Positions 6,434 to 61,490 of a stretch of 64,000 nt of DNA are shown piece after piece. The stretch spans positions 1,116,001 to 1,180,000 of the forward strand of contig NZ_CP007790.1 of assembly GCF_000835165.1 (NCBI RefSeq), written 5' to 3'. The stretch comes from Corynebacterium marinum DSM 44953. GTDB taxonomy: Bacteria; Actinomycetota; Actinomycetes; Mycobacteriales; Mycobacteriaceae. The position numbers and the translations under genes were made by a program. Positions within the stretch are counted from its first letter, which is position 1. Each line of letters starts with the position of its first letter. The notes beneath the pieces were generated by a model. It worked only from the letters and a program-made list of their open reading frames with translations, ran no database searches and was not told the DNA's origin.

Positions 6434-7003
6434 ATGATGAGTCTGACCCCGCGCCTGATGAGGGCGATCGACACGGCGGCCGTCAGTCACCGCGACCACG
6501 TGCGCAAAGGTTCGGGCATCCCGTACGTCGCGCACCTGTACGCGGTGATGCACCTGGTGTCGCAGGCGACCGGGGACGAGGACGTGCTCATCGCCGCACT
6601 GCTGCACGACACTCTGGAGGATGTGCCCGAGGTCTACCCGGAAACCCGGATGCGCGCGGAGTTCGGCGACAGGGTCACCGAGATCGTGCTGGGCCTGACC
6701 AAGGACGACTCGCTACCGGGCTGGCAGTCGCGTGCCGACGCCTACCTGGATCACCTGGAGCACCGTGCCCCGGAAGAGTCCGTGCTCATCGCGTGCGCGG
6801 ACAAGCTGCACAACCTCATGTCCATCCTGGAGGACCATGCCGCGTTGGGGGACCGGCTGTGGGAGCGTTTCAACTCCACCAGGGAGCAGCAGCAGTGGTG
6901 GTACGCGCAGATCAGCAGGGTGGTGGAGAAGAGAATACCCGGCCTGCCCCTGAACAGGGAGCTGGCCGGGCTGGCGGAGCAGTTTAACCGAGCTGGCGGT
7001 TGA
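6434..7003 (+). CDS. HD-domain phosphohydrolase, SpoT/MESH1-like
   Basis: The 189-residue protein has the metal-binding HD signature: 'HRDHVRKGSGIPYVAHLYAV', 'ALLHDTLED' and 'CADKLHNL'. These match the hydrolase half of RelA/SpoT and the stand-alone small alarmone hydrolases. Hydrolysis of (p)ppGpp or a related nucleotide is therefore likely; no synthetase domain is present. An AGGAG site precedes the ATGATG start. The 3' end overlaps the converging DUF2202 gene by 20 nt. Confidence 0.75.
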   Translation: MMSLTPRLMRAIDTAAVSHRDHVRKGSGIPYVAHLYAVMHLVSQATGDEDVLIAALLHDTLEDVPEVYPETRMRAEFGDRVTEIVLGLTKDDSLPGWQSRADAYLDHLEHRAPEESVLIACADKLHNLMSILEDHAALGDRLWERFNSTREQQQWWYAQISRVVEKRIPGLPLNRELAGLAEQFNRAGG

Positions 7004-7553
7004 ACGCGTTGAGGTGGTTGCGGGATCCCTTGAGCAGGTTTTCCATGACGTTCCTCACGTCGGCGTCCTCGGGGCCGAGGCCGGCGATGACCTGCTCCAG
7101 GTCGGCGATATCCATCTCCTCGATCGCCTTGCCCACCTCCAGGGCGTCGCGCGGGCTCTGCACGCCCTTGGCCACGAGCTGGTCGTGGAGGGTCTGCAGT
7201 TCGGGGTCGCTGAACTCGCCGGCGCCGAGGCGGGGGTCGGCGAGGCCGCGGGACTCCAGGAGCGGGAGGACGGCGGACTGGTGAGTGAGTTCGCTGTTGC
7301 TGATGTTGTCGAAGATGCGGGTGCCGTGCGCGTCGAACATCGCCCGGTAGACGTCGTAGGCGAGCTTCTCCTCCTCGATGAGGTAGCGCAGTTCCGCGTT
7401 GACGTCCACGGTGGTGGAGGCGGCGGCGGGGATGCCCGTCACCTGCTGTGCGGACTGTCCGTGGCGGGGTCCGGCGGCCTCCGCGGCCTGTGCGGTGGTT
7501 AGTGCCAGTGAGCCGGCGAGAACTGCTGCGCCGAATGTGCGGGTGAGTTTCAT
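6984..7553 (-). CDS. Secreted DUF2202 (ferritin-like) protein 1
   Basis: The 189-residue protein has a Sec signal peptide (KLTR, hydrophobic 'FGAAVLAGSLALTTAQA', cleavage after about residue 25). The rest is a DUF2202 domain, a predicted four-helix ferritin-like fold. Candidate metal ligands are the Glu cluster in 'YLIEEEKLAYDVY', the ExxH in 'SELTHQ', and the Glu and His residues in 'AIEEMDIADLE' and 'GSRNHLNAF'. ATG 7553 is preferred to TTG 7559 because GAGGAG lies 9 nt before it. A paralogue lies at 11300-11863, on the far side of the PLP/FAD operon. The biochemical role of the family is not known. Confidence 0.8.
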   Translation of the reverse strand: MKLTRTFGAAVLAGSLALTTAQAAEAAGPRHGQSAQQVTGIPAAASTTVDVNAELRYLIEEEKLAYDVYRAMFDAHGTRIFDNISNSELTHQSAVLPLLESRGLADPRLGAGEFSDPELQTLHDQLVAKGVQSPRDALEVGKAIEEMDIADLEQVIAGLGPEDADVRNVMENLLKGSRNHLNAFNRQLG

Positions 7554-7710
7554 GGTCAACGTCTCCTCGGGGAGGTCTGCGGCTGTTGATCTGAATATAA
7601 CTCCGCAGACCCCGGAAATTTACCCCCCAGGGTATGGGAATGATCACCTCCAGCTGCGGGAACTATTTCTCTCCTGCCTAAACGCTTCAGTCCCGCGTAA
7701 GATTTCCCGC

Positions 7711-8655
7711 ATGATTTCCAACTCTGGTCCCACGATTGCCGACACCATCGGCGGCACGCCGCTCGTGCGGCTCGACCGGCTCACCGCCGGACATGACGTC
7801 ACCGTGTGGGCGAAGCTCGAGTTCTTCAACCCCGGCGGCAGTGCCAAGGACCGCACCGCCCACGCCATGGTCGCCGCCAGCGACCTGAGGCCCGGGGACA
7901 CCGTGGTCGAATCCAGCTCAGGCAACCTCGGTGTGGCACTCGCCCGGGAGGCCGTGCTGGGGGGATGGTCCTTCCACTGCGTCGTGGACCCGCGCACCAA
8001 CCGGGCCACCATCGCCCACATGAAGGCGCTGGGCGCGACCGTCCACGAGGTGACCGAGCCCGACCCGGCGACGGGGGACTGGCTCACCGCCCGGCGCGCC
8101 CGCGTCGCGGAGCTGCTCACCGAGATCGACGGCGCCACCTGCCTCGACCAGTACTCCAACCCCGCGGCCTTCCGGGCGCACGACGAGGGCACCATGACCG
8201 AGATCGTCCGGCAGCTCGGCCACGCGCCCGACCATCTCGTCGTCGCGGTGAGCACCACCGGCACCGTCGGCGGCTGCCTGCGCCACATCGCCGCGCACGA
8301 CCTGCCCACCCGGGTCACCGCGGTCGACGCCGAGGGCTCCGTGCTTTTCGACGGCCGCGCCGGCGAACGCCACCTCCCCGGCTTCGGCGCGGGCATGGTG
8401 CCCAAATTGGCGGAGTCGGTGCGCCCGCACCGGGTCCTGCGGATCAACGACCGCGAATCGGTGGCCGCCGCACGTAGGCTGGTCCGTCTGGAGGCGATCC
8501 TGCCCGGGGCATCGGGCGGGGCGGTGGTCGCGGGCGTCGAGAAGCTCCTTCCGGAGCTGGCGCCGGGCAGCGAGGTCGTGATCATTCTGCACGACAGCGG
8601 TACCGGATACCTCGACACGATCTACAACGACGACTGGGTGGAGGAGAACCTGTGA
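7711..8655 (+). CDS. PLP-dependent cysteine-synthase-family enzyme, SbnA-like
   Basis: The 314-residue protein is a fold-type II PLP enzyme. The Schiff-base Lys is in 'NPGGSAKDRTA', the substrate loop is 'SSSGNLG' and the phosphate-binding turn is 'STTGTVGG'. It resembles SbnA, which joins O-phosphoserine and glutamate on the way to 2,3-diaminopropionate, as well as O-acetylserine sulfhydrylases. A TAAGAT box ends 7 nt before the ATG, so the operon mRNA is probably leaderless. Its TGA overlaps the GTG start of the fused FAD/PLP gene (GTGA), a strong sign that the products act together. It is divergent from DUF2202 protein 1. The exact substrates are unknown. Confidence 0.82.
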   Translation: MISNSGPTIADTIGGTPLVRLDRLTAGHDVTVWAKLEFFNPGGSAKDRTAHAMVAASDLRPGDTVVESSSGNLGVALAREAVLGGWSFHCVVDPRTNRATIAHMKALGATVHEVTEPDPATGDWLTARRARVAELLTEIDGATCLDQYSNPAAFRAHDEGTMTEIVRQLGHAPDHLVVAVSTTGTVGGCLRHIAAHDLPTRVTAVDAEGSVLFDGRAGERHLPGFGAGMVPKLAESVRPHRVLRINDRESVAAARRLVRLEAILPGASGGAVVAGVEKLLPELAPGSEVVIILHDSGTGYLDTIYNDDWVEENL

Positions 8656-11303
8656 CGAAGGTGGCTGTCATCGGCGGCGGGCCGCGGGGCCTGTGGGCGG
8701 CCGAGGAACTGCTGGAGCTCGCGCGCGAACGGGGTGCGGCGGTGGAGTTGCACGTGTTCGACGACGGCGGGCCGGCCGCGTACGACCCGCGGCAACCGGA
8801 GGAGTGGCTGATCAACGTGCGCTCCTCGGCCATCACGACGCAGCTGGGCAGCTTCGACGACTGGCGCGCCGTCCACGACGACCCCTTTCCGCCGCGGCGC
8901 CTGGTGGGCCGGTTCCTCGCGGAATCTTGGGCCGCGCTCGCCGCGCACGTGCCCCCGCGCTGCAGCCTCAGCCGGCACGAGGCGCGCGTGGAGAAGATCG
9001 ATCCCGCGGGCGGGCAATGGCGGGTGGAGGGCGGGCTCTTTGACGAGGTCCTGCTGGCCACCGGCCACGCCGACGACTGGCCGGGCTCGCTCGCCCACGC
9101 AGACCTTCCCGAGGGTGTGCGCCTCATCGCCTCGCCCTACCCGGCCGAGAACCTCGCCGGGATCGGCCCCGAGGACCGGGTGCTCGTCCGCGGGGCGGCC
9201 CTGACCTTCCACGACATCACCCGCGCCTGCTCGCCGGCGGTGTTCATCCCCGTCACCCGCACCGGCCGGTTCATGGTGGTCAAGCCCGACCTCGGGGAAG
9301 TCGACGCCGCCGACATTATCGCCGCCGGCCAGGAATGCATCCGCCGGGTCGCCGATCTGCCGGAGCTGACCGGCGTGCTTGAGACGGTGGCGCGGCAGCT
9401 GCTGGCACGTGCCGGGCGGGACGGGGACCCGGCGGCGGTGCTCGCCGGGACAGACGACGGCGAGCCGCACGCGAACTGGGCCGTCGGCATCGCCTGGCGC
9501 GACCTCTACCCGGCGATCGTCGAGCGGGCCTCCTACGACGGCCGCGACAGCCTCGTCGGCTTCGGCGAGCTCGCCCGGCGCCTCGAGCGAGTCGCCTTCG
9601 GGCCGCCCCCGGAGACGATGGCGCACCTGCAGGAACTCATCGACTCCGGGCGCGTCGACCCCTCCCACCTGCACCGCGGCAACGAACCCCTGGCTGACCT
9701 CGTCCGGGAGCTCGACATCACGGTGGTCGTCGACGCCGTCATCCCGCCGCCCGGTGTGGTGCCCGGCACCCTGTGCCAGGCGCTCGTCGACGCCGGCCAC
9801 GCGCGCATCCGGCCCGGCACCCGGGGCCTGGACGTCGAGCCGGACGGCACCGTCGTCGGGCAGAAACACCTCGCCGCCGTGGGGCGCATGACCGAGGACG
9901 TGGTCCTGGGCAACGACACCCTCTCGCGCACCCTCCACGACGTCCTCCCGCGCTGGGCCCGCCGCGTCGTGCCCGGGCCGCAGGCCGCCCACGGCATCCC
10001 GCCGCTGACCGCCCGCCTAAAGCCCTGGGCCGCGGAGTTGAGCGCCGACCCGGCGGCCTGCCGTGACCTGATCGCCGAGTTCGGCAGCCCCGTCAACGTG
10101 CTCGACCCGTCGCCCATGCTCGACAACGTCACCGAGCTGGTCGACGCCGGCGCGCAGATGGGCGTGGACACCCGCATCTTCTTCGCCCGCAAGGCCAACA
10201 AGGCGCTCACCTTCGTCGACACCGTCCGCGACGCGGGGCACGGTGTCGACGTGGCCAGCGAACGCGAGCTCGCCCAGGTGCTCGGCCGCGGCGTGCCGGG
10301 GGAGCGGATCATCCTCTCCGCCGCCATCAAGCCCGACCGGCTCCTGGAGCTGGCCATCGACAACGGGGTGACCGTCTCCGCGGATTCGCGCGCCGAGCTC
10401 GACCGGATCTCCGCCCTGGCCGGGAGCCGGCGCGCGAGGGTCGCCCCCCGCGTCGCCCCCGATCCCGCGTCGCTTCCTCCCACCCGCTTCGGCGAGCGTT
10501 CCGGCGACTGGGCGGAACATCTCTCCGGCCCGGTCGACGGCGTCGACATCGTCGGCCTGCACGTCCACCTGCACGGCTACGCGGCGGCCGACCGTGCCAC
10601 CGCGCTGCGGGAGTGCATCTCGCTTGTCGACGCCCTCCTCGACGCCGGCCACGCCCCCGACTTCATCGACCTCGGCGGCGGCGTACCCATGAGCTACCTC
10701 GACGACGCGGACCAGTGGCGCGGCTACCACTCCGCCCGCCAGGCGGTGCTCGACGGCTACGCCCGGCCCTTCACCTGGAAGTCCGACCCGCTGAACACCA
10801 CCTACCCCTACCACCAGTCGCCGGTGCGCGGCGGGTGGCTGAAGCAGGTCCTCGGCGACGGCATCGCCGAAGAGATGCTGGCACGGAACCTGCGCCTGCA
10901 CCTGGAGCCGGGGCGCAGCCTGCTCGACGGCTGCGGGCTGATCCTGGCGGAGGTGGCCTTCGTCAAGACCCGCAGCGACGGGCTGCCCCTGGTCGGTCTG
11001 GCGATGAACCGCACCCAGTGCCGCACCACCTCCGACGACTACCTCGTCGACCCGATCCACGTCACCGACGCCGCGGACGGGGAGGAGGTCGAGGCCTTCC
11101 TGGTGGGCGCCTACTGCATCGAGGACGAACTCATCCTGCGCCGGCGCATCCGCTTCCCGAAGGGGGTGCGGGCCGGCGACATCATCGCCATCCCGAACAC
11201 CGCCGGCTACTTCATGCACATCCTCGAGAGTGCCTCGCACCAGATCCCGCTGGCGAAGAACGTGGTCTGGCCGGCCGGGGTGCTCGACGACATCGATATC
11301 TAA
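8652..11303 (+). CDS. Fusion of FAD/NAD(P)-binding protein and fold-III PLP decarboxylase (Y4yA-like)
   Basis: The 883-residue protein has two halves. Residues 1 to about 455 form an NAD(P)/FAD-binding module: 'VAVIGGGPRGLWAAEELL' is the dinucleotide fold and 'LLATGHADDWPG' the second motif. Residues about 465-883 form an alanine-racemase-fold decarboxylase like LysA or SbnH. The PLP Lys is in 'FFARKANKALTF', with 'GLHVHLHGY', 'IDLGGGVP', the phosphate-binding 'EPGRSLLDG' and a C-terminal 'PNTAGYFMH'. All key blocks are intact, so both halves are probably active. It is co-translated with the SbnA-like synthase. The join of an oxidoreductase to an amino-acid decarboxylase suggests channelling of a diamino-acid intermediate. 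The product is not known. Confidence 0.8.
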   Translation: MTKVAVIGGGPRGLWAAEELLELARERGAAVELHVFDDGGPAAYDPRQPEEWLINVRSSAITTQLGSFDDWRAVHDDPFPPRRLVGRFLAESWAALAAHVPPRCSLSRHEARVEKIDPAGGQWRVEGGLFDEVLLATGHADDWPGSLAHADLPEGVRLIASPYPAENLAGIGPEDRVLVRGAALTFHDITRACSPAVFIPVTRTGRFMVVKPDLGEVDAADIIAAGQECIRRVADLPELTGVLETVARQLLARAGRDGDPAAVLAGTDDGEPHANWAVGIAWRDLYPAIVERASYDGRDSLVGFGELARRLERVAFGPPPETMAHLQELIDSGRVDPSHLHRGNEPLADLVRELDITVVVDAVIPPPGVVPGTLCQALVDAGHARIRPGTRGLDVEPDGTVVGQKHLAAVGRMTEDVVLGNDTLSRTLHDVLPRWARRVVPGPQAAHGIPPLTARLKPWAAELSADPAACRDLIAEFGSPVNVLDPSPMLDNVTELVDAGAQMGVDTRIFFARKANKALTFVDTVRDAGHGVDVASERELAQVLGRGVPGERIILSAAIKPDRLLELAIDNGVTVSADSRAELDRISALAGSRRARVAPRVAPDPASLPPTRFGERSGDWAEHLSGPVDGVDIVGLHVHLHGYAAADRATALRECISLVDALLDAGHAPDFIDLGGGVPMSYLDDADQWRGYHSARQAVLDGYARPFTWKSDPLNTTYPYHQSPVRGGWLKQVLGDGIAEEMLARNLRLHLEPGRSLLDGCGLILAEVAFVKTRSDGLPLVGLAMNRTQCRTTSDDYLVDPIHVTDAADGEEVEAFLVGAYCIEDELILRRRIRFPKGVRAGDIIAIPNTAGYFMHILESASHQIPLAKNVVWPAGVLDDIDI

Positions 11304-50937: not shown

Positions 50938-51783
50938 CTAGCGGAACTGTTTTCCGACTTCGTGCCATAGTCTCCTCTTGCGTTCATTCTCAATGGCAGG
51001 ATCCACTTCTTGAATAAACTCGAGCGCTTTGAAACCGTCCCCTTGGCGACGGTTTTGTGGAGGTTCAAGTCCTTCGATCATCAAGGCTTCCATCGTGGCA
51101 ATCAGCGCTTCGATGGACATTCCAGGAGGTGGGACTTCACCCAGTTTTCCATCATCACCCACGCTGCGGACCCCGAACCACGAGAATTTATCCCATCGAG
51201 CCTTCAGCCGATCCCTGGTGTGTTGCGACAATCGCGCCCCCAAACGGGACTCGGTTACTCGGCCAACATAAATGACCCTGTTCCCCTCATGTAAGAGGTA
51301 TATACCCGCCTGCTCGGAAAAATCGATTGGATCGCCACCTGTCAACTGGACACCTAGGAGTCGAACCTTGGGAGTGCGCCAGTCCACTTCATTCCTGTGC
51401 CAAAACATGCCGAACGATCCAATTAATCCTGCTTCACTTTCCAGAGGATCGGTAGCAGTTTTTACTGCTGATGGTTCGTTCAACGCGGAAACCCGGGTTG
51501 CTTCTTTAACAATTTCATCAGACTCAGAATCCGACGTCATGGACTTCTTTAGTAACGATCGCAGTTTAGAGGGGAGGATGTAATAACCTCGCTCGGTCTT
51601 GACGATCTGATCTTTCAGAGCATCGCTGCCGAGGAACGAAGCGACCGTGCTGCTTGGAGTGGCACCGACATCTCGCCGCAGCCCCTGATCGATAACAGCT
51701 TGAGCAATTTCCGTGTAGTGCATCGGTTCGTCTACTTGACCTAGGACCCGGAGAATTGCATCTCGCCATTGCATATTGGACAT
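50938..51783 (-). CDS. HARE-HTH plus GIY-YIG nuclease-domain protein
   Basis: The 281-residue protein has an N-terminal HARE-HTH winged helix ('DAILRVLGQVDEPMHYTEIA', residues about 5-75). A linker and a GIY-YIG domain follow at about 140-260: 'AGIYLLHEGNRVIYVGRVTE', Arg in 'RLGARLSQHT' and the catalytic-type Glu in 'MEALMIEGLEPPQNRR'. HARE-HTH domains are found fused to restriction endonucleases and are thought to read DNA modification. ATG 51783 has GAGGAG 5 nt upstream. The gene is visibly richer in A+T than uvrB beside it, suggesting acquisition. A lone restriction-like nuclease is the best guess. Confidence 0.72.
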   Translation of the reverse strand: MSNMQWRDAILRVLGQVDEPMHYTEIAQAVIDQGLRRDVGATPSSTVASFLGSDALKDQIVKTERGYYILPSKLRSLLKKSMTSDSESDEIVKEATRVSALNEPSAVKTATDPLESEAGLIGSFGMFWHRNEVDWRTPKVRLLGVQLTGGDPIDFSEQAGIYLLHEGNRVIYVGRVTESRLGARLSQHTRDRLKARWDKFSWFGVRSVGDDGKLGEVPPPGMSIEALIATMEALMIEGLEPPQNRRQGDGFKALEFIQEVDPAIENERKRRLWHEVGKQFR

Positions 51784-51963
51784 TGCTGCTCCTCTGGTAG
51801 ATGAAACTTTCCTTAGAAACAACGATAGCTGGAGCGGTGGCTTACCAGTTGAACTTGAGCGAGCGAACTTTCACGTGCTGGGCTTGTGGCCCAACATGCT
51901 TGGCACAAACCGCCCCAATCACGCCCGTCGACCCCCACCCCTAACCCGCGTACCCTGTAGAGC

Positions 51964-54582: not shown

Positions 54583-55023
54583 ATGAGCGACTACCAGAAG
54601 ATCGTCGTCGGCACGGACGGCTCGAAGTCTTCCCTGCTGGCTGTTGAGCGCGCTGCCAAGATTGCCGCTGCCTTTGACGCGACCCTCATCATCGGCTGCG
54701 CCTACTACGAGAACAAGGACGAGGCCTCCCAGACCCTCCGTCAGGATTCCGTTACCATTCTCGGCGATGACACCGCCCAGAAGAACCTCGCCGCAGGTGA
54801 AGAGGCCGCCCGCAAGGCTGGCGCCACCAAGGTCGAGCAGGCCGTCCGCCCGGGCACCCCGGTCGAGGCCCTTATGGCCATCGTCAACGAGTCCAACGCC
54901 GACCTGCTGGTCGTGGGCAACCGTGGCATCAACTCCCTGACCGGCCGCCTGCTGGGCTCCGTCCCGGCTGACGTCGCGCGTCAGTCGGACTGCGACGTGA
55001 TGATTGTTCACACGGTCTCTTAA
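54583..55023 (+). CDS. Universal stress protein 2
   Basis: The 146-residue UspA-domain protein has 'KIVVGTDGSKSSLLAVERAA' and 'LLVVGNRGINSLTGRLLGSV', close to its neighbour. TAAACT at about 54533 is a likely -10 box, leaving a leader of around 40 nt, and AGGAAAGG lies before the ATG. Its codon use is more strongly biased than that of the first copy, suggesting higher expression. Confidence 0.92.
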   Translation: MSDYQKIVVGTDGSKSSLLAVERAAKIAAAFDATLIIGCAYYENKDEASQTLRQDSVTILGDDTAQKNLAAGEEAARKAGATKVEQAVRPGTPVEALMAIVNESNADLLVVGNRGINSLTGRLLGSVPADVARQSDCDVMIVHTVS

Positions 55024-55049
55024 GCGGCTTGTGCCTCAGAAGCACTGAC

Positions 55050-55086
55050 GCGGCCCCCGGGAGGAGATCCTGGGGGCCGCGTTGTC
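55050..55086 (+). terminator. Terminator after the usp pair
   Basis: GCGGCCCCC (55050-55058) pairs with GGGGGCCGC (55072-55080), and inner bases GGGA/TCCT extend the stem. The tail GTTGTCGTT is only moderately T-rich. Confidence 0.65.
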
Positions 55087-55108
55087 GTTAATGGTGGGGT
55101 GAGACCAT

Positions 55109-56953
55109 CTATTCCTCCTCCGGGTTCCCCTCCACGAAGGCTTCCTCTTCAAAGTGGGAAGAATCCTCGGCGGCGGTCCCCTGACTGATGTCCCGCTGGA
55201 CCTTCTTGTCCAGCACAGATTCGATCAAGAGGCAGAGCTGCTCCCGGCGGGTGCTGAAGAAGTTCCGGAAGTTATCTGTACGCAGATTTTCCGGCTCAAT
55301 CAGGTGGCCCCTGAGCAGAGCATCGAGCATCTCGTCGTCGATGCCGGCCTGTTCCTTGATCTTGTCCAGGTAGGACGACGGGGCCACACCTCCGATGACG
55401 CGGTTGGTGCGGGCACCGAGCATGGTCTTGTTCACGATGCTCTCCCGGTGTTCATCATCGATGCCGTTTTCATTGCACCAGCGCTGCGGGAAAATATGGT
55501 GAATGTCCACCGCCATGTCCTTGTGCTGGACCGCCCCAAAAGCCTTGTCCTCCATCCAGTCACGGGCACCGCCCGCCATGACCAAGGCGGCGACTCCCTT
55601 ATAAGCGGCAGAGTTGCGGGTCCGCATGGAATGCAGTCGGGACTCTGTGAAGTTGGCGTCCGCCACGGTCCGGGGAGTCGGGCTCTCCCCATCGACCGCC
55701 CAGGCAGGCACACCCTCGATGTCCCGAACGAAGCGTGTCTCAGTCGCAGAACCGTACAGCTCACCCAACACACCGGACCAGAACCAGGTGGACAACCGGG
55801 CACTGACCGAATGCATGTCCGCCTTCTGGCCCAGCACTACCCGGATGGCTGCCAGAGGAACCAACTGCTTCGGGTACGGAACATCACGGTGGCTGAAAAT
55901 ATGGCGATCTGCCAAAAACCCGGAGGCCCAGATGAAGGCGTCTCGCAGCGGGTCTCGCCATTCGAGGTAGTCGGTCAGCTCGAGCTTGAGGACATCTTCA
56001 CGTTTCGCCGAGATCGCGGGTGGGCGGGTGGAGGTACTGGCGAGATTTCGCTTGCGGGTGGCCAGCATCGTGACCGCCTGGAGGAAATCCGTGTTCTCCA
56101 CGCCCGCCAGGACAGGAAAATCCACCCATTTCTTCTTTGTCTCCTGCCAGTCATCATTGAGCCGGAAATCGGAACCGGTCTCGTTGTAGAAATCGGCGTC
56201 GCCAGCGAACACCGCGGTGAGGAGCTCAAAGACGTTCAGCGGCAGGCCGCCGATGTTGACTTTCTCGAAGACCGTGGCCACAGCAGCCTTGTCCGTCTGT
56301 GCGTCCAGCTCAATGGCGGGGATGTTGTACTTCCCGGCCTGGGAGACGAATTTGTCCTGGAAGCTGAACGCGAGACTCTTATCTTCGTGGCCGAAAAGCC
56401 ATTCCATTGACCCGGTAGCGTCGAAAAGTAGGTTCAGTGGGTAGTAACCTTCTGCACGCTGCTTTTCCGGCGTGCTGAGATCCAGGACGATATCGCGATC
56501 GAAGTTCTTCCTGATCACTCCGTCTCCGGGTACTGATATCACCGCTTCGTCCATACGGTTCACGTCTTCGAGGGCTCGCGCCATGTGGGCGAAGTACCGG
56601 CGCTCAAGGAGCTTGCCGCGAACATCCTTGGTGTGGACCACCCCGCCACCGGTCAGCGCCTGTGTGAGCGAGGTCAGACGCTGCTGTCCGTCAAGGAGGA
56701 GCTTCTCAGGCTCGGTACCGGGCTCCAGGTCGACGCCGGTGATCGGGCGAGGCTTGAAGCGCACCAGTGCGTTGTTGGTCTCCAGCAACATCACCACGCC
56801 CATGGGATGGCCTCGCAGCACCGTGATCAACAACTGGCGGATCCGTTCGTCGTCCCACTTGTAACCGCGCTGGAAATCAGGCAGTTGGATCTTCCCCGAA
56901 CGGGTTTCCTCCAGGTACTGGGACAACGTATACATCGGGGTCTGGAAACCCAT
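55109..56953 (-). CDS. DUF262/DUF1524 protein (GmrSD-like)
   Basis: The 614-residue protein begins with a DUF262 ParB/Srx-like domain: 'GKIQLPDFQRGYKWDDERIR' and the nucleotide-binding 'KLLLDGQQRLTSLTQAL'. The C-terminal DUF1524 part contains an HNH-type core 'VDIHHIFPQRWCNENG' and 'NKTMLGARTNRVIGG'. This pairing occurs in type IV restriction enzymes (GmrSD, SspE, BrxU), which cut modified phage DNA in an NTP-dependent way. ATG 56953 has AAGGAG 5 nt upstream. It is the third gene of the mazG-helicase-DUF262 run, 87 nt after the helicase. Confidence 0.82.
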   Translation of the reverse strand: MGFQTPMYTLSQYLEETRSGKIQLPDFQRGYKWDDERIRQLLITVLRGHPMGVVMLLETNNALVRFKPRPITGVDLEPGTEPEKLLLDGQQRLTSLTQALTGGGVVHTKDVRGKLLERRYFAHMARALEDVNRMDEAVISVPGDGVIRKNFDRDIVLDLSTPEKQRAEGYYPLNLLFDATGSMEWLFGHEDKSLAFSFQDKFVSQAGKYNIPAIELDAQTDKAAVATVFEKVNIGGLPLNVFELLTAVFAGDADFYNETGSDFRLNDDWQETKKKWVDFPVLAGVENTDFLQAVTMLATRKRNLASTSTRPPAISAKREDVLKLELTDYLEWRDPLRDAFIWASGFLADRHIFSHRDVPYPKQLVPLAAIRVVLGQKADMHSVSARLSTWFWSGVLGELYGSATETRFVRDIEGVPAWAVDGESPTPRTVADANFTESRLHSMRTRNSAAYKGVAALVMAGGARDWMEDKAFGAVQHKDMAVDIHHIFPQRWCNENGIDDEHRESIVNKTMLGARTNRVIGGVAPSSYLDKIKEQAGIDDEMLDALLRGHLIEPENLRTDNFRNFFSTRREQLCLLIESVLDKKVQRDISQGTAAEDSSHFEEEAFVEGNPEEE

Positions 56954-57040
56954 GGCGACTCCTTGAATTGAGAGCAGTTTTTTAAAGGCTTCTAAATCCA
57001 AGGTAGGTGAAAATTAAGAATGCCGTCTCTTCAATCGCAT

Positions 57041-58795
57041 TCAAGCAACCACCGGGAAGTACCTGCCGAGATATTTCCGCAACCCCGGGTCGACAACGTG
57101 GATGAAGGTGCCGCGGATACCGCGCGTCATCAGGACAGCGTAGATGTTGGTGATCAACGACTGGAGAAATTCATTCGTCGTGGGGCGATTACGCACCGTG
57201 ATGTTCTGCTTGCCGAAGGAATCGTGGTAGCTGTCGCGGTCGATGAACAACTCGTTCCTCCACGGGTCGTAGCGCAGGTCGGGCCCGATGATCACACCCG
57301 CGTAGTTGAGGTCGTAGCCCTGGATGGTGTGGATGGAGCCGGCCTCCTCGAGGGCCGTGGGTGAATTCACCCAGTCGACGACAACTCTGTTCCATTGGAA
57401 CTCAACACCCTCACCGAGGTCGATGTCCATGGCCGTCTTGTCCTTCTTCGACTTCCACGGCCAGGCGTAGCCCGCGACGATGCGGGACAGGCCGTGCTCG
57501 GCCTCCCGCGCTTTGATCAGTTCGACGAGCCTGCGGGGAGAGTCGACCAGCCCGACTTCGTAGTTGCCGAAGGTCAGGCGCTCTGAAGGGGGAGCGGGGG
57601 AGAAGACGTTGTAGACGTAACTGATGTAGTCGTTGCCGCCCATGCTCCGCATCTGGGTGTGGAGTTTGTAGCGTCGGTCGCGCGGCACGTCGGATAGCAG
57701 CTCAAGGTACTCCTCCTCCGGCAGGTCCTGGGGCCGGACGGACTGCTTGAGGTCGAGCATCAGAATCAGATTCTTCGCCTTGGCCCGCAGCCAGTCGAGC
57801 TGGGAAGCCTGGGGGCGGTCACCGCCGAAGAGGTCGGCGTTGATGCTCTGGAATCTCTTGTTGGCGGGCCCCGAGGACTGGGAGGAGAACTGGTTGAGCC
57901 GGTGTGCCTCGTCCACGATGAGAATGTCGAATTCGCCCCGATCCTCCGCCACCTCGTGCGGCGTCATCACCATCTCTTCCTTCAACCCGGGGGTTTTGGT
58001 GAAGACGTTTTTCAGCGATTTACGCAGGGATTGCTGCGGGATGACCATCCCGATCCGAAGCCCCTCGAAAAGCCGCACTGTGTCCTCGACGAAAAACTCG
58101 GAGAACATTGTGTCGGTGTCTGCCTCATGACGGTCGCGGTGGACGGAAATATCGGAGATCAGTTTCATCAGGTAGACGGCCACGACGGTCTTTCCCGTGC
58201 CGGGATCACCTTCGATGACGACGAGGTTGTTCTGTTCCTTCTTCTTCGACAGATCCTCGACCAGACCCTCCATGATGTCCACCGCCGCGATGGCCTGGTC
58301 TTCGTTGAGCGCCTTGAAAGGGGAGAGCTTGAACAGCTCGGAGTTGACGATCTCCGGGATGCCCCGGTTGAAGACCCCGGCCGTGAGCAGCTCGTTGAAG
58401 ATCTCGTCGAAGACCCGGGTGTACTTCTCCCGCTCGTAGTAGTCGGCGTCGACCACGCCGGTGTTGCGGTTGAGGACGTCATTCGTCCCGTCGCCGGCGG
58501 CGTACTTGATCAGGTACGACTCAAGATCCAGGCACACCGATTTGTTGAAGGTGTCGTCCAGCACCACCCGGATCGTCTTGAGCTTCTCCTGCTTCTCCTT
58601 GTTGTCCAGGTGCTGACGCATGCGCGAGCTGAAGTTTCGCGTTTCTCCCAGGTAGATGGACCCCCTGGCGCCTCTACCCTCGGGTGGGCTGTTGAGGACG
58701 TAGACGACGGGCCAGTTGCTCAATTTCGACGCCCTCGGCAACTCTCTCACCGAGCCGGAAGTAAATTCAAACTCTTCTATCTTAAAGCCGGTCAT
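57041..58795 (-). CDS. GIY-YIG/DUF2075 (Schlafen-like) helicase
   Basis: The 584-residue protein opens with a GIY-YIG domain at about residues 25-115 ('VVYVLNSPPEGRGARGSIYL', 'GETRNFSSRMRQHL', Glu in 'DLESYLIKY'). The DUF2075 P-loop motor follows: Walker A 'VIEGDPGTGKTVVAVYLMKL', DEAH box 'ILIVDEAHRLNQ', and 'TIQGYDLNYAGVIIGPDLRY' near the end. It looks like an NTP-driven nuclease or remodeller acting on nucleic acid. ATG 58795 overlaps the mazG 3' end by 14 nt, so expression depends on mazG. This architecture is known in genomes as a predicted protein; its activity is not established. Confidence 0.83.
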   Translation of the reverse strand: MTGFKIEEFEFTSGSVRELPRASKLSNWPVVYVLNSPPEGRGARGSIYLGETRNFSSRMRQHLDNKEKQEKLKTIRVVLDDTFNKSVCLDLESYLIKYAAGDGTNDVLNRNTGVVDADYYEREKYTRVFDEIFNELLTAGVFNRGIPEIVNSELFKLSPFKALNEDQAIAAVDIMEGLVEDLSKKKEQNNLVVIEGDPGTGKTVVAVYLMKLISDISVHRDRHEADTDTMFSEFFVEDTVRLFEGLRIGMVIPQQSLRKSLKNVFTKTPGLKEEMVMTPHEVAEDRGEFDILIVDEAHRLNQFSSQSSGPANKRFQSINADLFGGDRPQASQLDWLRAKAKNLILMLDLKQSVRPQDLPEEEYLELLSDVPRDRRYKLHTQMRSMGGNDYISYVYNVFSPAPPSERLTFGNYEVGLVDSPRRLVELIKAREAEHGLSRIVAGYAWPWKSKKDKTAMDIDLGEGVEFQWNRVVVDWVNSPTALEEAGSIHTIQGYDLNYAGVIIGPDLRYDPWRNELFIDRDSYHDSFGKQNITVRNRPTTNEFLQSLITNIYAVLMTRGIRGTFIHVVDPGLRKYLGRYFPVVA

Positions 58796-59102
58796 ATTTA
58801 TCCGATCGTCCGCGGGACTTCTCCACCGGGTACTTCTCATTGGTGATCGCCAGTTTCGCCCTCACGAGCTCGTCGGGATTTTCGCCGAGGAGATCCGCCA
58901 GCAGATAGGCGTAGGTGAGGACGTCCGCCAACTCGCTCCTGAGCTCCTCGGGCTCCGCGGAATCGTTCCACTGGAAACACTCGAGAAGTTCGGCGGCTTC
59001 GATGCTGATGCTTTTGGCGAGGGTCTCAGGAGTATGGAATTGGGCCCAGTCCCGTTCGCGAACGAAGTCGCGGAGCCGCGCGAGAATTTCTTCACTGGCC
59101 AT
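58782..59102 (-). CDS. MazG-like nucleotide pyrophosphohydrolase
   Basis: The 106-residue all-alpha protein shows the MazG metal-binding helices: 'SIEAAELLECFQW' and 'ELADVLTYAYLLADLLG', with 'EKYPVEKSRGRSDKYDRL' at the end. It should hydrolyse a non-canonical or canonical NTP to NMP and pyrophosphate. A TACACT box ends 6 nt before the ATG, so this is the leaderless first gene of the operon with the GIY-YIG/DUF2075 helicase. Nucleotide depletion or alarmone removal during phage infection is a conceivable role (inference). Confidence 0.88.
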   Translation of the reverse strand: MASEEILARLRDFVRERDWAQFHTPETLAKSISIEAAELLECFQWNDSAEPEELRSELADVLTYAYLLADLLGENPDELVRAKLAITNEKYPVEKSRGRSDKYDRL

Positions 59103-59321
59103 TGCACCAGTGTATCCGTGCCCCGTAGGCGGAGGTCACTACGTTCGGCGAGGAGCCGGGCGTTCCTGGGGTGGGTACCACCGGAGTCGAAACCAGGAAG
59201 TCGAGATCAGGGAGAGGAGTTCGCCCCTGCTCTCGACCTCGAGGGTAGCCCTCTCGACTCTCTGATCTCCTCCAGGCGGGGAGCCTCACCGACCCGCCGC
59301 CACCCCGGACAGTCACAACCC

Positions 59322-61490
59322 CTACTCCGGCAGCTCGCCCACCACCGTCAACGTCTGCGTCGCCCGCGTGACCGCCACATAGAGGTCCTGCCAGCCCTGC
59401 GGGGAGGCCTCGACAATCTGCTTCGGGTCAACGACCACCACGTGGTCGAACTCCAGGCCCTTGATCTCGGTGACGTTCGAGACGTCGATAACCTTGGTCA
59501 AGCCCTCCGCAGGCGTCTCCCAGGAAGAACCCGCCGGCAGGAAACGAACCGGTACGCCGGACTCGCGGATGGCCACGGCCGGGGTGGCGTCCGGGTCGAT
59601 GCGCGCGAGAACGGCGTTGGCCACCTCCATGATCTCCACCGGGGTGCGGTAGTTCACGGTCAGCTCGTGGTGGCGGAAACGGGTTCCCACATAGGGCTCC
59701 ATCGTCGCGGCCCAGGTGTCCACGCCGGCGGGGGAGCCGGTCTGGGCGGTGTCGCCGACCAGGGTCATCCAGCGGGCCGGGCTGCGGCGGAAGACCATGC
59801 GCCATTCCATGGGGGAGAGCTCCTGGGCTTCGTCGACGATGACGTGGCCGTAGGCCCACTGCAGGTCCGCGCGGGCGCGTTCGGCGGTGGAGCGGGAGTC
59901 GCGCACCAGCTGGCGGGTGGCGAGTTCCTTGGCGGAGATGACGTCGGTGGCGGCGAGGTGCTCGGCGTCGAAGATGTCGCCGAGGTCGTCGTCGTCCACC
60001 GATGCGGAGGATTCGAGGATGTCCAGTGCGTCCTGGGCGTCCTCGATCTGCTCGTCCCAGCTCTGGGCCTCGGCCTTCTCCTCGTCCGGCAGGCCGACCA
60101 GCACGGCGAGCTCGTCGAGCAGCGCCGCGTCGGAGGCCGCCCAGGCCGAGCCCTCGGGCCGCCAGAGCGCTTCACGGGTCTCGTCGTCGTAGCCGGCGGC
60201 GGCGACGTCGATGGCGGCGGCGTCCTCCAGCAGCCCGCGCAGGACACCCTCGGGGCTGAGCTCCGGCCAGAACTCCTCGATGAGCTTCTCCACGCCCGGT
60301 TCCTCCGCCAGGTCGTCGTGCAGCTGGTCGATGTCTGCCCGAGAGAGCAGGTTGGCCCCGCCCAGGGGATCCTCGCCGATGCGCTTGGCCAGCTGCGCGG
60401 CCAGCAGTTCGATGAGGTGCTCCGCGAAGACTGCTCGGGCCTCGTTGTGCGGCCGGCGCGAGCGGCGGGCGCGGGTGCGGGCGGCCTTGACCATGGCGGC
60501 GTCGACAAGCAGGCGCAGCGAGCCGTGGGGGAGTTCGACGGGGGCGTCGGGAAGCGTCTGGTGGGCGCGCACGGCCTCGCGGAGGATGGTCACCATCTCC
60601 TCCGAGCCCTTGATCTCCCGGGTGAGCAGGGACTCGGGAGCGGCGCCGTGGACGCCGGGGTAGAGGTCACCGACGGTGCTCAGGACCACGCCGGTTTCGC
60701 CGAGTTCCGGCAGGACGCGGGAGATGTAGTCCAGGAAGGTGCGGTTGGGCCCGACGATGAGCACGCCGGACTTCGTCAGCTGCTCGCGTGCGGTGTAGAG
60801 CAGGTAGGCCACCCGGTGCAGCGCCACTGCGGTCTTGCCGGTGCCGGGGCCGCCCTCGACGACCATGACGCCGCGGGTCTCGTCGCGGATGATGAGGTCC
60901 TGCTCGCGCTGGATCGTCTCCACGATGGACTTCATGTGGCCGGTACGCGCGGCCTTCATCGCCGCCACCAGCGCGGACTCGCCGCCGACGCCTTCCAGGC
61001 CCTCGCCGGCGTGCTCGCCGGAGAGCCACTCGTCGTCGACACCGGTGACCTCGCGGCCCTTCGTCCGGATGTGCCGGCGCAGGGTCACCCCCTCCGGCTG
61101 GGCGGTGGTGGCCAGGTAAAAGGGGCGGGCCATGGGCACGCGCCAGTCCAGCAGCAGGGTGCGGTAGCCCTCCTCGCGTACGTCCAGGCCCATGCGGCCG
61201 ATGTAGCGGCGGTCCAGCTCCGGGTGGCCGGGGACCGGGTTCTCGGGGTCGTCCGAATCGATGTCGATGCGCCCGAACACCAGACCCAGCTGCGCCAGGT
61301 TGAGACGGTCGAGCTTGGAGTTCAGGGCGTGGTACTCGGTCTCACGCCGGATCAGCGCATCCGCGTCCGGGTTTGCGGGGTCCACCTCCAGCTGCACCTG
61401 GCGCAGCCGCTCGTTGGCGGTCGAGACTTCCTCGTCGAGCCGGGCGAAGAGGTCGTCGACGTAAGCCTGTTCTTTCGCGATCTCACTCAC
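59322..61490 (-). CDS. HelD/HelR-type UvrD-like ATPase (RNA-polymerase recycling)
   Basis: The 722-residue protein begins with an N-terminal antiparallel coiled coil ('EQAYVDDLFARLDEEVSTAN'). Split motor domains follow: Walker A 'VVEGGPGTGKTAVALHRVAY', DEAQ-type 'VIVDEAQELSPMEW', and C-terminal 'IKGLEFDHVVVVDP' and 'YVAVTRATQTL'. This is the HelD layout, in which the protein enters RNA-polymerase channels and frees stalled complexes; the actinobacterial form can protect against rifampicin. GTG 61490 has AGGGAGG 10 nt upstream; TTG 61514 does not. Confidence 0.85.
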   Translation of the reverse strand: MSEIAKEQAYVDDLFARLDEEVSTANERLRQVQLEVDPANPDADALIRRETEYHALNSKLDRLNLAQLGLVFGRIDIDSDDPENPVPGHPELDRRYIGRMGLDVREEGYRTLLLDWRVPMARPFYLATTAQPEGVTLRRHIRTKGREVTGVDDEWLSGEHAGEGLEGVGGESALVAAMKAARTGHMKSIVETIQREQDLIIRDETRGVMVVEGGPGTGKTAVALHRVAYLLYTAREQLTKSGVLIVGPNRTFLDYISRVLPELGETGVVLSTVGDLYPGVHGAAPESLLTREIKGSEEMVTILREAVRAHQTLPDAPVELPHGSLRLLVDAAMVKAARTRARRSRRPHNEARAVFAEHLIELLAAQLAKRIGEDPLGGANLLSRADIDQLHDDLAEEPGVEKLIEEFWPELSPEGVLRGLLEDAAAIDVAAAGYDDETREALWRPEGSAWAASDAALLDELAVLVGLPDEEKAEAQSWDEQIEDAQDALDILESSASVDDDDLGDIFDAEHLAATDVISAKELATRQLVRDSRSTAERARADLQWAYGHVIVDEAQELSPMEWRMVFRRSPARWMTLVGDTAQTGSPAGVDTWAATMEPYVGTRFRHHELTVNYRTPVEIMEVANAVLARIDPDATPAVAIRESGVPVRFLPAGSSWETPAEGLTKVIDVSNVTEIKGLEFDHVVVVDPKQIVEASPQGWQDLYVAVTRATQTLTVVGELPE

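Follow-up and report, generated by a model that had tools for sequence, protein, structure and literature searches.

A conserved mazG–GIY-YIG/Schlafen-group-3 helicase gene pair in Corynebacterium marinum and its relatives as a candidate anti-invader module

Animal versions of the Schlafen group 3 DNA/RNA helicase family (PF09848, formerly DUF2075) act against viruses, and defences that deplete nucleotides, using dCTP deaminase or dGTPase, are also known. Here, we analysed 64,000 nucleotides of Corynebacterium marinum DSM 44953 (contig NZ_CP007790.1, positions 1,116,001 to 1,180,000; the whole stretch is referred to as the window and corresponds to G000:C1:1116001-1180000 in our genome set, G000 being the window's own genome). 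The window carries a mazG-like gene that overlaps a gene encoding a GIY-YIG nuclease fused to a Schlafen-group-3 helicase. This pair is a conserved accessory unit and looks like an undescribed defence module. An initial annotation had joined the pair to the next gene on the same strand, which encodes a DUF262/DUF1524 protein, and proposed a three-gene defence operon; the layout, the domains and defence as the likeliest role stood, but the trio as a unit did not, the conserved unit being the mazG-helicase pair.

The closest described systems each resemble the pair in part. The Schlafen group 3 family shares the helicase domain, which was matched nearly full length, whereas the window protein is fused to a GIY-YIG domain and coupled to MazG, and Pfam found no animal Schlafen nuclease domain in it. 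Like the nucleotide-depletion defences, the pair would lower a deoxynucleoside triphosphate (dNTP) pool, but with a different enzyme fold that is joined to a nuclease-helicase. DCTPP1 (RS21-C6) resembles the MazG protein by sequence match, although the window protein is bacterial, has 106 amino acids and appears to be gene-coupled to a helicase-nuclease. RS21-C6 and DCTPP1 are reported to act on 5-methyl-deoxycytidine triphosphate (5-methyl-dCTP; PMC10742078) and DCTPP1 to hydrolyse canonical and modified dCTP (PMC13139568), and enzymes resembling DCTPP1 are credited with keeping the dNTP pool clean (PMC10742078, PMC13139568). CMoRE (PD-T4-3), a GIY-YIG type IV enzyme (PMC12923530), likewise uses a GIY-YIG nuclease in defence, but it is a single gene, and its paper nowhere uses the word helicase. 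DefensePredictor (PMC13092281) counts a MazG pyrophosphohydrolase, itself uncharacterised, among its predicted defence domains; the text gives it without a named partner, and it may or may not be the pair described here. Among the matches listed in our literature search, no paper was recognised as describing the mazG-helicase pair. In PADLOC-DB 2.0.0, no model matched MazG, and the helicase and DUF262 proteins gave partial matches only, with no full-length match to a protein of a named system.

The mazG-like gene (58782..59102, minus strand) encodes a protein that matched the Pfam family MazG-like (PF12643, E 3.5e-18) and, by sequence, the PDB entries 4qgp (E 6.1e-18) and dCTP pyrophosphatase 1 (E 3.5e-13, residues 6-104). 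Its metal-ligand motifs, IE[AS]xELL, [FY]QW and ELxD[VI], were kept in 91/91 MazG relatives. Family match and metal-ligand motifs together place it among the DCTPP1-type all-alpha nucleoside triphosphate pyrophosphatases, in the dCTP-pyrophosphatase (DCTPP1/RS21-C6) branch, and dCTP is its predicted substrate.

The second gene (57041..58795, minus strand) encodes a 584-amino-acid protein in which the SLFN-g3_helicase profile was matched with an E value of 1.1e-60 (206.2 bits against a cut-off of 24), covering its 354 positions to within two. The N-terminal GIY-YIG domain scored 21.8 bits in Pfam (E 2.3e-4) against a cut-off of 22.6. Tyr, Tyr, Gly, Arg and Glu residues have catalytic-type roles in the GIY-YIG family, and Y32, Y48, G50, R58, H62 and E92 (catalytic region 58520..58711, minus strand) were invariant in all 27 aligned relatives, in which the Walker A (GDPGTGKT, residues 196-203; 58187..58210, minus strand) and DEAH residues were also kept. 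Judged by residue conservation, the GIY-YIG nuclease domain is intact. In some relatives, the GIY-YIG N-terminus is replaced by an E...RxD...ELKQW stretch; we call it PD-(D/E)XK-like from alignment columns read by eye, and Pfam searches of ten proteins, nine of them helicases, named no domain in it. As a separate observation, tandem Schlafen-group-3 helicases, in which a GIY-YIG protein is paired with one bearing the PD-(D/E)XK-like stretch, were seen at nine Corynebacterium loci that have no MazG (L040, L041, L042, L047, L053, L065, L068, L069 and L070).

The end of mazG and the start of the helicase gene overlap by 14 nt (58782..58795, minus strand), and this arrangement recurs widely. Conservation was assessed at 80 named loci, the best 80 of 438 relatives, which lean towards the window's clade. 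mazG lay upstream of the helicase gene on the same strand at 74/80, with an overlap of exactly 14 nt at 61. A stricter profile count gave 68/80, lowered by reading-frame edges; six of its twelve misses (L116, L132, L136, L137, L174 and L175) had mazG by tblastn, and we use 74/80. The loci without mazG were L102, L104, L106 (second helicase instead), L144, L157 and L164, and at L170 mazG was ~1 kb from the helicase. In Phycicoccus (L174, ~6695-8710), MazG and helicase formed one open reading frame, which may be a genuine fusion or reflect a minor change of frame where the two genes overlap. MazG accompanied the helicase at 20/20 fetched Microbacterium loci. A phylum sample of 246 genomes contained 20 with a helicase match, of which 13 had MazG adjoining, including all seven with a GIY-YIG helicase (in G374 on the opposite strand). 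A Corynebacterium survey covered 242 genomes of the genus, with 40 helicase loci taken from the 46 genomes that had a helicase match, and MazG stood with a GIY-YIG helicase at 16/40. No fixed third gene was seen downstream of the helicase at the 80 named loci; a first downstream gene was called in 78, and it lay on the same strand within 300 nt in 24/78, being diverse in kind. In the 36 genomes behind named loci that were used to count MazG copies, selected as having the pair, the best MazG match was the pair site in 36/36, and 33/36 had no second match. A side observation concerns Leucobacter massiliensis (L124), which had two equal-score MazG copies on opposite strands ~16 kb apart (G497:C17:93351 and 109122).

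Expression signals were compared across the mazG relatives, with start codons picked by script. The window has a -10-like element, TACACT (59109..59114, minus strand), 6 nt before the mazG ATG, and a TANNNT word ended 6-8 nt before the start in 81/91 genes (79/89 without two duplicates), compared with at most 4/89 in any other 3-nt offset window. Shine-Dalgarno-like words showed no peak upstream of the same genes. Because of this TANNNT position peak and the lack of a Shine-Dalgarno-like peak, mazG probably has a leaderless transcript, and the leaderless start proposed from the window alone thus gained comparative support. Against it, scanning 54900-59400 for a plain sigma-70 consensus gave no promoter. 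Translation of the helicase is probably coupled to that of mazG by way of the 14-nt overlap.

The pair is accessory, being patchy in distribution and found at varied sites. The helicase occurred in 35/149 Microbacterium genomes, one copy each; at the 20 of these 35 loci that were compared, neighbours mostly differed, even at ~90% copy identity, and a few loci shared neighbours. These site differences and the patchiness are the grounds on which mobility is claimed. High mobility between genera was considered and set aside, since 7/10 genera with at least three rows were single clades in a FastTree tree of 87 helicases (Cellulomonas with low support), which points to limited transfer between genera. 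Phage records and certain plasmids of Bacillota and haloarchaea also carry the pair, and on Ligilactobacillus salivarius and Priestia plasmids it stood beside restriction-modification genes. A scan of viral contigs gave two relatives; MazG was present at both of these and in both phage records examined (of 4), in one case ~1 kb away. Separately, on a Limosilactobacillus fermentum plasmid (L213), a GIY-YIG Schlafen-group-3 helicase lies directly before the type III CRISPR genes cas6 and cas10.

Flanking genes were compared with control stretches placed at round-number coordinates of 20 contigs from the same set, 18 of which were used; 140 flank and 125 control proteins were prepared, and 32 and 17, respectively, were dropped for size. 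Pfam, which was run on the flank set only, found three C5 methylases, two GmrSD_N, three GmrSD_C (the one at L107 without GmrSD_N), two ResIII and two MTaX1 among 108 proteins encoded in the flanks of 28 loci. At 1e-20, 97 PADLOC families were matched in the 108 flank proteins compared with 36 in the 108 control proteins; 25 of those 36 were listed and, by our reading, seem housekeeping-like (IscS, UvrD and PolA types). An enrichment near other defence genes, by which the initial annotation thought a defence system might be recognised, is suggestive, as the comparison rests on few proteins and the family types on the first 25 listed per PADLOC set.

We consider it fairly probable that the mazG-helicase pair is an accessory anti-invader module in which MazG would act on dCTP or modified dCTP and the nuclease-helicase on nucleic acid. 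The helicase would engage foreign or stalled nucleic acid, the putative trigger and target, and the GIY-YIG domain would cut what is engaged; MazG would hydrolyse dCTP or 5-modified dCTP, such that an invader could not copy or protect its DNA. Together, the two proteins would restrict phages or other invaders. Linkage, the single MazG copy, patchiness, varied sites, domain exchange, occurrence in plasmid and phage records and the defence-type flanks were counted in favour of this proposal.

Several observations weigh against it, in addition to the genus-wise helicase clades and the small flank sample described above. MazG is dispensable in relatives: 12/40 Corynebacterium loci had a lone GIY-YIG helicase without MazG, 9/40 had tandem helicases without MazG and 3/40 further loci also lacked it. 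Only 5/17 plasmid records examined (of 39) had MazG, and 2/9 among those with a GIY-YIG helicase. PADLOC offers no model for the MazG protein, and MazG enzymes with such a fold may serve simply in house-cleaning.

The house-cleaning role leads to the strongest alternative, chromosomal maintenance, in which MazG would rid the cell of damaged or modified dCTP while repair of stalled forks would fall to the helicase-nuclease, with no anti-invader role. The published descriptions of DCTPP1-like enzymes as dNTP-pool cleaners (PMC10742078, PMC13139568), the mostly genus-wise inheritance of the helicase and the placement of the window copy between uvrB and uvrA would all suit such a role, but the patchy distribution and varied sites, the plasmid and phage-record occurrence and the exchange of the nuclease domain argue against it, and we regard it as unlikely. 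Nor is the uvr neighbourhood kept, as the pair of C. pollutisoli sits on a different contig from its uvrB site. A general Uvr-linked repair operon was not supported, given this observation and the 20 Microbacterium neighbourhoods, which mostly differed in scans that used the window queries only, with no dedicated uvr gene search. Just beyond uvrB in the window (50938-51786, minus strand) lies a gene for a 282-amino-acid protein with a HARE-HTH match (E 3.5e-8) and, by eye, a second GIY-YIG-like stretch.

A toxin-antitoxin-like arrangement, in which MazG would restrain the nuclease-helicase either by direct action or by destroying a nucleotide that activates it, could explain why a small upstream gene is held in a tight, conserved overlap and why a single-ORF (open reading frame) fusion occurs in Phycicoccus. 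However, GIY-YIG helicases without MazG made up 21/40 Corynebacterium loci, the lone and tandem cases together, and the catalytic-type motifs kept in 91/91 MazG relatives would be needless in a mere binding partner. We judge a guarded effector of this kind to be improbable.

The remaining alternative concerns the neighbouring gene. The DUF262/DUF1524 gene (55109..56953, minus strand, 614 amino acids) follows mazG and the helicase gene in transcription order, its ATG is 87 nt from the helicase stop, and it has an ordinary ribosome-binding site, AAGGAG (56959..56964, minus strand), 5 nt before the ATG. The strand, order, overlap, gap and ribosome-binding site that had been read from the window were all borne out by its sequence, and the MazG, GIY-YIG/DUF2075 helicase and DUF262/DUF1524 domain calls hold. 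The protein resembles the GmrSD-like (DUF262-DUF1524) type IV enzymes GmrSD, SspE and BrxU: it matched GmrSD_N with an E value of 3.2e-28 (99.7 bits against a cut-off of 33.2) and contains DGQQR and HHIFP motifs. It differs in that GmrSD_C (DUF1524) scored 15.8 bits, under the cut-off of 23, and the gene only adjoins the pair.

Whether the three genes recur as neighbours was surveyed with both narrow and broad searches. Of the 242 Corynebacterium genomes, 46 had a match to the helicase query, 189 to that for DUF262 and 24 to that for MazG (21 at E <1e-20). The DUF262 count is mostly due to a paralogue of ~40% identity, whose spread over these genomes suggests a near-core role; the copy in C. 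marinum lies outside the window, at G000:C1:1103126-1104868. Contrary to the expectation of recurring neighbours, a window-type DUF262 gene was found at 1/40 Corynebacterium helicase loci (the window itself), 0/80 named loci, searched by tblastn and profile with flanks of 6.5 kb or more on each side at only 57/80, and 0/20 Microbacterium loci. Conversely, the helicase was absent, by gene calls, from all 19 loci examined around 18 closer DUF262 orthologues and the paralogue.

One shared site, running from uvrB-usp-usp to a UvrD-like gene, holds the pair, the DUF262 gene or both. G000 has DUF262-helicase-mazG at this site. C. lemuris (L032) aligned on both sides of window 55084-57055 and has helicase-mazG without the DUF262 gene, on a contig that stops just past mazG, whereas C. 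pollutisoli (L082) and G169 (L081) aligned on both sides of window 56953-59321 and have the DUF262 gene without the pair. Because relatives hold the pair or the DUF262 gene alone at one site, and given the neighbour surveys, the trio as a conserved unit was rejected. The DUF262/DUF1524 gene is best read as a separate gene, GmrSD-like and of defence type, that shares the insertion site with the pair but is mostly found without it.

A broader profile found DUF262-type proteins of any kind near 9/140 helicase loci, compared with 0/20 control stretches (12 kb each and shorter than the loci), and in three cases they lay directly downstream on the same strand. These neighbours were distributed over 3/40 Corynebacterium loci (the window, L054 and L066), 4/80 named loci (L148, L156, L161 and L176) and 2/20 Microbacterium loci (L254 and L259). 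At L161 and L176, a diverged gene with both GmrSD_N and GmrSD_C lies 3' of the helicase on the same strand, at distances of 19 nt and 449 nt, respectively, by our own gene calls. The L066 protein, partial at 207 amino acids and downstream of the helicase, is weakly like the DUF262 C-terminus, and Pfam names nothing in it. DUF262-type proteins were also found at 1/21 plasmid, phage or viral loci (L184); the cluster at L184, on Lactobacillus amylolyticus plasmid p1, contains a (deoxy)nucleoside triphosphate pyrophosphohydrolase, a DUF262 gene, a restriction endonuclease and a DUF2075 helicase. The remaining DUF262 neighbours vary in place or strand. Collectively, these neighbours fit shared defence neighbourhoods, perhaps with some working link, better than a fixed trio. 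A single three-component defence system, which the common strand, the 87-nt gap and the failure to find any terminator-like site between these two genes (helicase and DUF262) on the minus strand would allow, is very unlikely, and is retained at all because of L161 and L176.

Correcting the three-gene reading identifies the right two genes for cloning. A wider interpretation, which we hold tentatively and consider somewhat doubtful, is that the pair belongs to a widespread undescribed immune module, carried by bacteria, by an archaeal plasmid and in phage records, that combines a dCTP-pool enzyme with a Schlafen-type nuclease-helicase whose nuclease is exchangeable; it would be a prokaryotic counterpart of Schlafen replication-stress-linked antiviral immunity, with dCTP loss and cleavage acting together. 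If the anti-invader proposal is true, a defence module whose MazG has no PADLOC model would be present in the 35 helicase-bearing Microbacterium genomes of 149 and in many other actinobacteria. Depletion of a nucleotide pool and restriction by a nuclease-helicase would then be joined in a single, tightly coupled cassette, which would also place the Schlafen group 3 helicase in a prokaryotic context.

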